Shown here: one piece after another, positions 34,218 through 35,528 of the stretch
Position numbering within the stretch: position 1 is the stretch's first letter
Layout: each line of letters starts with the position of its first letter
Assembly (NCBI RefSeq): GCF_003864255.1
Contig: NZ_QWEZ01000002.1
Location: 1,054,001-1,118,000, forward strand
From: Aestuariirhabdus litorea
Lineage (GTDB): Bacteria > Pseudomonadota > Gammaproteobacteria > Pseudomonadales > Aestuariirhabdaceae
Reading direction: 5' to 3'
DNA: 64,000 bases
The notes under the pieces: model-generated
Told to the model about the DNA's origin: nothing
The model's database searches: none
Seen by the model: only the letters and a program-made list of their open reading frames with translations
Translations under genes and position numbers: made by a program

Positions 34218-35528
34218 TCAGGGTTGCGTAGGCTCCTTGCCGTGCAGGATTTTGGGCCAGTAGGTGGAGAAGTTAAACTCCGGGCTGTGGGAGGCGTTGT
34301 GGCACTGGCGGCAGGTGGACTCATCCGGTTTGGGGGTGGCCAGCGCCACTTTGCCGGCGGATTCGGCGTGCTCGCGCCCGGCACCGTGGCAGTTCTCGCA
34401 CTGCACATTGGCCAGCTGCGGGGTAGTGAACTGGTCGAGGTAGCCCCCCTCAACCCCCAACCCGACCGTATGGCACTGCAGGCACTCCGGGTCGTAGGAT
34501 TTTCCCACCGCCTGCAGGTCGGCGATTGCCTTGGCGTGTTCGCTGCCCTGCCAGGTCTTGCCGCTTTGGGGGTGACAGAGAGCGCACTGCTGATTGCCAA
34601 CGAAGGGGCTGGTGCCCTCCATGCGCGCTTTCCGCTGTTCGACCCGCTGCTGGTAGAACTGCTTGATCTCTTCGTTGTAGTCGCTGTACCACTGGGCCAG
34701 CTCGGGGGCGTCGGGGACGCTGGGCGGCAGGGTGATCACCTGGTGCTGCCACTGCTGAATGCGCCCCTCGGGGCTGATCTCCAGACTCAGCCTGCCGAGG
34801 CGCATACCTCGCGAGCCCGGTTGGACCACCAGGGTCTGCCCCAGCTGCTGGGGCTCACCCACCTGTTCGTAGAGGGGTTCGATCAGCAGCAGGTCGATCA
34901 GCGCCAGGGGAAGGGTCTGCTGCGCTTGCTGCCTGCTCAGGGTGGTGCCCACCACTGTGGTTTCGCCCCGCTCGCGGGCCGCCTTCAGTGCCTCGGCCAG
35001 TGCAGTGGGGACGGTCTCGACCTTGCGGTTGGTTTCGCCCATCTGGCGGTAGGGAGAGGTGAGGGGGTCGAGCCACTGGAAATAGCGAAAGCGGGCCTGG
35101 GATCGCTGGATGAGCACTGAGGGGGCAAACTCATCCCCTTCCCAGTTACTGGCCACCCAGGGGAGTTGGGCACTTTTGAGGGCATCGAAGCCATAGGCCA
35201 GGTCGGTCCACTGTAACCCCACTGCATCGTACTTGAGCTGTTCGATGGCGGCGAGAATATAGCGGTTCTTGATCTTGTTGCTGGTCATCTGTGCCGACAG
35301 CAGGCCGCCGGCCGTAATAGCGACCAGCTCGCTGTCCTGTTGGCGCAGTTCGCCCAGGGCGGTGGCCCGGCGTTTTAATCCACCCATATCGCCCGCCTCG
35401 GAACAGCCGCAGGGCTCCAGCTCGCCGTCCATATTGCCGGAGTAAACCAGCGTGATCGATGCTGCCAGGCTGCTGCTTGCGATCAAGGTGAGGAGCAGGG
35501 TAAGGGCAAGGCGAAGTGTCTGCGTCAT
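34218..35528 (-). CDS. Secreted tetraheme c-type cytochrome fused to a UshA-like domain
   Basis: A 436-residue exported protein: signal peptide to about residue 23, then a 5'-nucleotidase/UshA-like domain to about 290, then a cytochrome c554-like region with CxxCH motifs at about 315 (CALCH), 349 (CLQCH), 377 (CENCH) and 406 (CRQCH). The N-terminal domain keeps the outline of metallophosphoesterases, but their metal ligands look replaced: the usual TND-H block reads SGNMDG, the GD block reads AGG, and the GNHE block reads LQWTD. A conserved ELEPCGC motif (Cys40, Cys42) is present instead. Related UshA-like proteins exist, some with selenocysteine at the CGC. It presumably transfers electrons in the periplasm; substrate is unknown. 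Confidence 0.8.
   Translation of the reverse strand: MTQTLRLALTLLLTLIASSSLAASITLVYSGNMDGELEPCGCSEAGDMGGLKRRATALGELRQQDSELVAITAGGLLSAQMTSNKIKNRYILAAIEQLKYDAVGLQWTDLAYGFDALKSAQLPWVASNWEGDEFAPSVLIQRSQARFRYFQWLDPLTSPYRQMGETNRKVETVPTALAEALKAARERGETTVVGTTLSRQQAQQTLPLALIDLLLIEPLYEQVGEPQQLGQTLVVQPGSRGMRLGRLSLEISPEGRIQQWQHQVITLPPSVPDAPELAQWYSDYNEEIKQFYQQRVEQRKARMEGTSPFVGNQQCALCHPQSGKTWQGSEHAKAIADLQAVGKSYDPECLQCHTVGLGVEGGYLDQFTTPQLANVQCENCHGAGREHAESAGKVALATPKPDESTCRQCHNASHSPEFNFSTYWPKILHGKEPTQP

Follow-up and report, generated by a model that had tools for sequence, protein, structure and literature searches.

What might an apparently exported protein do that has the fold of a 5′-nucleotidase, none of its metal ligands and four heme-binding motifs? 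The gene that raises this question lies in a 64,000-nucleotide stretch of Aestuariirhabdus litorea DNA, referred to here as the window, and occurs as a single copy in the 3.66-Mb genome (G000; completeness 98.7%). Its open reading frame starts with ATG and encodes 436 amino acids. Export is suggested by the N-terminal sequence, and a structural model of the protein places a helix at residues 2–16, inside the putative signal peptide. The gene and the main parts of its product are:

34218..35528, minus strand: coding sequence of the 436-residue UshA-fold/tetraheme cytochrome protein, from the ORF list and profile matches
35463..35528, minus strand: probable Sec signal peptide, residues 1–22, MTQTLRLALTLLLTLIASSSLA, with a basic start, a hydrophobic stretch and small residues at its end
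34647..35462, minus strand: degenerate UshA/SoxB-type metallophosphoesterase domain, residues ~23–294, with Z ~27 to UshA, CD73 and SoxB structures and six metal ligands replaced
35403..35411, minus strand: Cys40-Gly41-Cys42, an invariant CxC whose second cysteine is selenocysteine (Sec; UGA) in the relatives L108, L110, L113 and L119
34239..34616, minus strand: tetraheme cytochrome c554-type domain, residues ~305–430, from PF13435 and a separate model

An antisense open frame of 298 codons within the gene (window positions 34224–35120, plus strand) appears to be an unsupported shadow ORF.

A catalogued two-domain family

The protein matches the NCBIfam profile NF041198, 'UshA-like (seleno)protein' (UshA_like_PCGU), with 247.1 bits (E = 3.2e-73), which does not reach the curated cut-off of 275; an orthologue from the same genus scores 200 bits. 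The match falls in two stretches, profile positions 6–275 and 347–519 of 519, and so spans both domains. The PCG-C/U motif of the profile is present, with Sec forms among the relatives. Full-length relatives sharing the two-domain layout occur across many bacterial lineages, and on this sequence evidence the union of a UshA fold with a tetraheme domain is a real, widespread family rather than a chance fusion.

The domain combination is not new to this protein. It is already catalogued, together with the CxU motif, as NF041198 covers both domains and the UshA-like CxU family appears in published selenoproteome surveys (PMC2398784, PMC9312934, PMC13188914). In the available portions of that literature, the 2008 ocean survey lists the UshA-like proteins as an exception to the conserved Cys-based redox motifs of other families, and hemes are not mentioned for the CxU family. 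The variant encoded in the window has Cys rather than Sec, lacks the metal ligands and scores under the NF041198 cut-off, whereas the Sec members that pass it keep several metal ligands. A literature search of limited coverage returned no paper linking the UshA-fold/tetraheme architecture to DsbA or naming PCGU. What appears to be new is the DsbA operon described below, the way in which metal loss differs between clades, and the assignment of the hemes to the c554 type.

The metal site, the CGC pair and the hemes

An AlphaFold model of the 436-residue protein, computed with 70 family members as input, has a mean pLDDT of 90.8. Residues ~22–290 superpose on bacterial and human 5′-nucleotidases and on SoxB with Z scores of 25–27 and rmsd values of 2.6–2.9 Å over ~265 residues; in a PDB sequence search, nucleotidases match the protein weakly. 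The likeness to Escherichia coli UshA and CD73 covers the fold of their N-terminal domain and extends to a glycine and an arginine that are conserved beyond loop 1. Unlike these enzymes, the window protein has neither metal ligands nor a nucleotide-binding C-terminal domain, and carries a CGC pair and hemes. The thiosulfohydrolase SoxB is similar in fold (Z ~27; 2wdc, 4uwq) and weakly so in sequence, but the window protein scores 31.8 bits on TIGR04486 against a cut-off of 550, and the dimetal site is lost.

The motifs SGNMDG, AGG (as TAGG), LQWTD, ELEPCGC and SGNMDGELEPCGC are all found in the translation. In a joint alignment that included eight UshA-type proteins, the ligand columns D, H, D, N, H and H of UshA read N, D, G, W, T and P in the window protein. 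The catalytic GNHE block is likewise replaced, here and in nearly all of the clade. Across the 51 members of that clade, a ligand is never the common residue at any of the six positions (N stands in 48 and W in 44, for example). The same alignment showed no ligand retained as the common residue in Nitrospirota-type members, the first Asp alone in SAR324-type members (9/10), and the first Asp, the second Asp and each of the last two His in three of the four Sec forms. Conserved in every clade are C-G-C/U, the GG and Arg that follow it, and the hemes. As these are constant while the metal ligands depend on the clade, the family is defined by its CGC pair and its hemes, and a metal site is not required.

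The initial description of four CxxCH motifs behind a nucleotidase-like domain, with the metal-ligand blocks replaced and ELEPCGC kept, thus stands, and comparison with UshA and SoxB recovers the UshA fold with no intact set of metallophosphoesterase ligands. The accompanying idea that the CxC pair was gained as the metals were lost is probably wrong. CGC or CGU occurs in every clade seen and the Sec relatives still have several ligands, so the CxC pair probably predates full metal loss, which looks like the later event in these alignments.

Eighty relatives were retrieved from genomes, and the gene was readable in 74 of these. In four of them (L108, L110, L113 and L119), TGA occupies the codon exactly at Cys42 with the frame open on both sides, which bears out the suspected alignment of CGC with Sec, a correspondence already on record. 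These four score 276–287 bits on NF041198, above its cut-off, and each host genome has a SelB over the cut-off; a SelB profile search of the window genome gave no match over the cut-off. Hairpins form when the sequence after the UGA is folded as a SECIS, but their z-scores of 0.4 to −1.8 are too weak to decide the matter, and the Sec assignment leaned on the presence of SelB instead.

No variation is seen among the 70 aligned members, at identities down to ~27%, in residues C40, G41, C42 and R53, in the four CxxCH motifs or in His331 and His387. Sites where Cys and Sec replace one another are typically those of catalytic redox residues. In active UshA, the first metal ligands come from the loop that follows strand 1. 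The CGC pair occupies this loop and would therefore be expected at the entrance to the former active-site pocket; the loop is modelled less confidently than the rest, with pLDDT values of 88 (residues 31–40) and 77 (residues 41–50). The UshA fold, the degenerate metal site and the alignment of CxC with CxU make the predicted redox role, rather than a phosphatase role, the best reading, as had been proposed from the window alone.

The C-terminal nucleotide-binding domain of UshA is absent, and residues ~305–430 form a c554-type heme domain instead. This region matches PF13435 (Cytochrome_C554) with E = 1e-14 and 55.5 bits against a gathering threshold of 20.8, and a PDB sequence search matches it to cytochrome c554 at E = 7.5e-12. 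Folded alone (pLDDT 92.3), the domain aligns with cytochrome c554 at Z 11.2 over 131 of 141 residues with 29% identity, and cytochrome c554 outranks OcwA, c552 and MccA as a structural match. The nucleotide-binding half of UshA has therefore been replaced by a c554 module. Like cytochrome c554 of Nitrosomonas europaea (PDB 1ft6/1bvb), this module has a PF13435 domain and four hemes, and its heme 2 is predicted to be open as well; it differs in being fused to a UshA-fold domain, and the protein does not reach the cut-off of the c554 equivalog NF043010 (52 versus 400 bits). The heme motifs and candidate ligands are:

34572..34586, minus strand: heme 1, CALCH, residues 315–319; expected distal ligand His387, by analogy with c554
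34470..34484, minus strand: heme 2, CLQCH, residues 349–353; no near-invariant distal His left for it, and probably open as in c554
34386..34400, minus strand: heme 3, CENCH, residues 377–381; expected distal ligand His331, by analogy
34299..34313, minus strand: heme 4, CRQCH, residues 406–410; expected distal ligand His429 or His414, by analogy
34536..34538, minus strand: His331, candidate distal heme ligand (70/70)
34368..34370, minus strand: His387, candidate distal heme ligand (70/70)
34242..34244, minus strand: His429, candidate distal heme ligand (69/70)

By analogy with c554, His331 would ligate heme 3, His387 heme 1 and His429 (or His414) heme 4, a pairing that draws on sequence alignment with c554 and partly on the known structure of that protein. 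With three near-invariant distal histidines for four hemes, the distal site of heme 2 is probably open, His414 (present in 53 of the 70 aligned members) leaving some ambiguity. Since hemes are absent from the model, both of these assignments are to be read as predictions. Heme 2 is the described active site in c554, OcwA and MccA (PMC6703420).

Gene neighbourhoods and a DsbA-type gene

In the window the gene stands alone, with flavodoxin-fold azoreductase-like and HAD genes downstream on the other strand and a divergent polysaccharide deacetylase gene upstream. Among gammaproteobacterial relatives, the neighbourhoods revealed no partner conserved throughout the clade; the Rsd-like, Sel1-like and MiaB-region neighbours, considered as candidates there, look like ordinary synteny. 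The earlier statement that no dedicated partner gene is adjacent is thus right for the window locus, but fails for a Nitrospirota-centred clade. There, the gene is directly followed by a DsbA-type gene in the same orientation in 17 of 20 members (14 of 16 loci, and 3 of 4 from a second search).

In the 14 loci measured, the first plausible ATG of the DsbA gene lies 12–23 nt past the stop codon, mostly after an AGGAGG-like site. The encoded oxidoreductase belongs to PF01323 (DSBA), retains its CxxC and has DsbA proteins as its best PDB matches. In a quick tree, the Nitrospirota-centred clade forms one branch with a support of 100; the linkage may therefore have arisen once, and the 17 loci are not 17 independent events.

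Two other neighbours were recorded. At three loci of one gammaproteobacterial subgroup (L046, L048 and L058), a small single-heme cytochrome c-like gene is next on the same strand, ~900 nt downstream of the gene centre, and is a possible electron partner there. Nine loci (L091, L093, L095, L096, L101, L103, L105, L114 and L116) have a P-type ATPase-like gene on their upstream side, in most cases transcribed divergently; they usually also carry DsbA, and the ATPase gene was seen in the DsbA clade only.

Replacement of DsbB or VKOR by the tetraheme protein finds no support in the phylogenetic profile. Both are absent from 8 of the 14 genomes with the DsbA operon, but this absence is uninformative because most background genomes of the phylum lack both as well (among 148, DsbB is over the cut-off in 6 and VKOR in 20). 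The window genome has an ordinary DsbB, so DsbA could be reoxidised there without the tetraheme protein, and a link to DsbA would be redundant.

Proposed thiol/disulfide chemistry and its rivals

The position of the CGC/CGU loop beside a vestigial pocket, the hemes on the same chain, the interchange of Cys and Sec and the DsbA neighbour make thiol/disulfide-to-heme transfer the best reading. It is proposed, with a confidence slightly above even, that the UshA/tetraheme protein works in the periplasm as a thiol(selenol)/disulfide:cytochrome c oxidoreductase, with its UshA fold retained as a scaffold. Cys-Gly-Cys (Cys-Gly-Sec in some relatives) would undergo disulfide exchange with a partner, for which the product of the adjoining DsbA-type gene is the most likely candidate in one clade. 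Electrons would then pass singly along the four c554-type hemes and on to other c-type cytochromes of the periplasm. DsbA normally acts as an oxidant and has to be reoxidised, so the likelier direction would be thiol oxidation, from reduced DsbA through the CGC pair to the hemes; the opposite direction, in which the hemes would reduce a disulfide, is also possible. Redox activity, contact between the CxC pair and a heme, the direction of flow and a partner in the window organism are all features that we infer. Against this reading, the DsbA association is limited to one clade, and DsbA could instead help to fold or mature the cytochrome.

The likeness to SoxB, among the nearest folds at Z 27 and detectable in sequence (4.5e-8 for the window protein and up to 4e-24 for Sec relatives), would also suit a SoxB cousin turned oxidoreductase. 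CGC/CGU would then hold a small sulfur species (sulfane sulfur, thiosulfate or polythionate) as a persulfide or mixed disulfide, with the redox chemistry done at heme 2, which would be open as in c554 and MccA. The shortage of near-invariant distal histidines fits such an open heme, as in c554, and heme 2 is the active site of the MccA sulfite reductase (PMC6703420). However, the SoxY carrier was not found in 15 of the 20 host genomes tested, one of which is the 98.7% complete window genome, and this argues against a general Sox role; sulfur-metabolism genes were also never a conserved neighbour in the survey. A sulfur-compound enzyme seems unlikely, and a role in the Sox pathway was rejected.

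CxC motifs are able to bind soft metals, and the P-type ATPase-like gene upstream at nine loci of the DsbA clade would agree with a metal-binding or structural CxC in a domain that serves as scaffold, or as binder of a soft metal such as copper, on an ordinary electron-transfer cytochrome. DsbA would then be a folding or maturation helper only, and a review on cytochrome c biogenesis reportedly discusses it. Sec at the second Cys speaks instead for a residue with a role in redox catalysis. Nor would one expect a general folding helper next to one particular cytochrome in 17 of the 20 genomes of the clade, and the ATPase was seen in that clade only; a metal-binding or structural CxC seems unlikely. 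A metal-dependent phosphoesterase or nucleotidase to which electron transfer was added would account for the retained UshA fold and for the ligands kept in Sec relatives. It is very hard to reconcile with the replacement of all six ligand positions and GNHE in the window protein and nearly all its clade, and with a heme domain standing where UshA has its C-terminal nucleotide-binding half.

The proposed thiol/disulfide exchange with the hemes has a functional parallel in mitochondria, where electrons from the CPC motif of Mia40 reach cytochrome c by way of Erv1 (PMC4019985). In both cases, as proposed for the window family, a CxC dithiol exchanges disulfides and the electrons end in cytochrome c; with DsbA/DsbB, the family shares DsbA as a likely partner in one clade. 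These likenesses concern predicted function, for the window family differs from both systems in having no flavin or quinone, in its unrelated folds and in its covalently attached hemes. The family might be a flavin- and quinone-free disulfide-generating enzyme that oxidises DsbA or other periplasmic thiols via CGC/CGU and delivers electrons straight into c-type hemes, a suggestion that we regard as possible but doubtful. If true, bacteria would have a counterpart of the Mia40–Erv1–cytochrome c relay, and DsbB/VKOR an alternative that works with hemes.

More broadly, a direct extracytoplasmic path from thiols to cytochromes would, if real, add a new way of forming disulfides or of running sulfur redox reactions. 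UshA-like selenoproteins have, in the portions of the literature available, been listed without a function since the 2008 ocean survey, and this unexplained family now has a concrete and testable hypothesis, built on its four hemes, its lost metal site and the DsbA gene beside it in one clade.

The two halves of the architecture are also encountered apart. Stand-alone tetraheme c554-like cytochromes of 146–225 residues, with a match to the heme domain only, occur at L133, L135, L139, L141, L142 and L143, all of them from hosts in the Nitrospirota-type phylum. In that sample, two genomes (G338 and G359) encode a stand-alone c554-like cytochrome and a separate UshA-only protein of 514–522 residues, and another (G102) has a 251-residue protein in three identically scoring copies that match only the heme half of NF041198.
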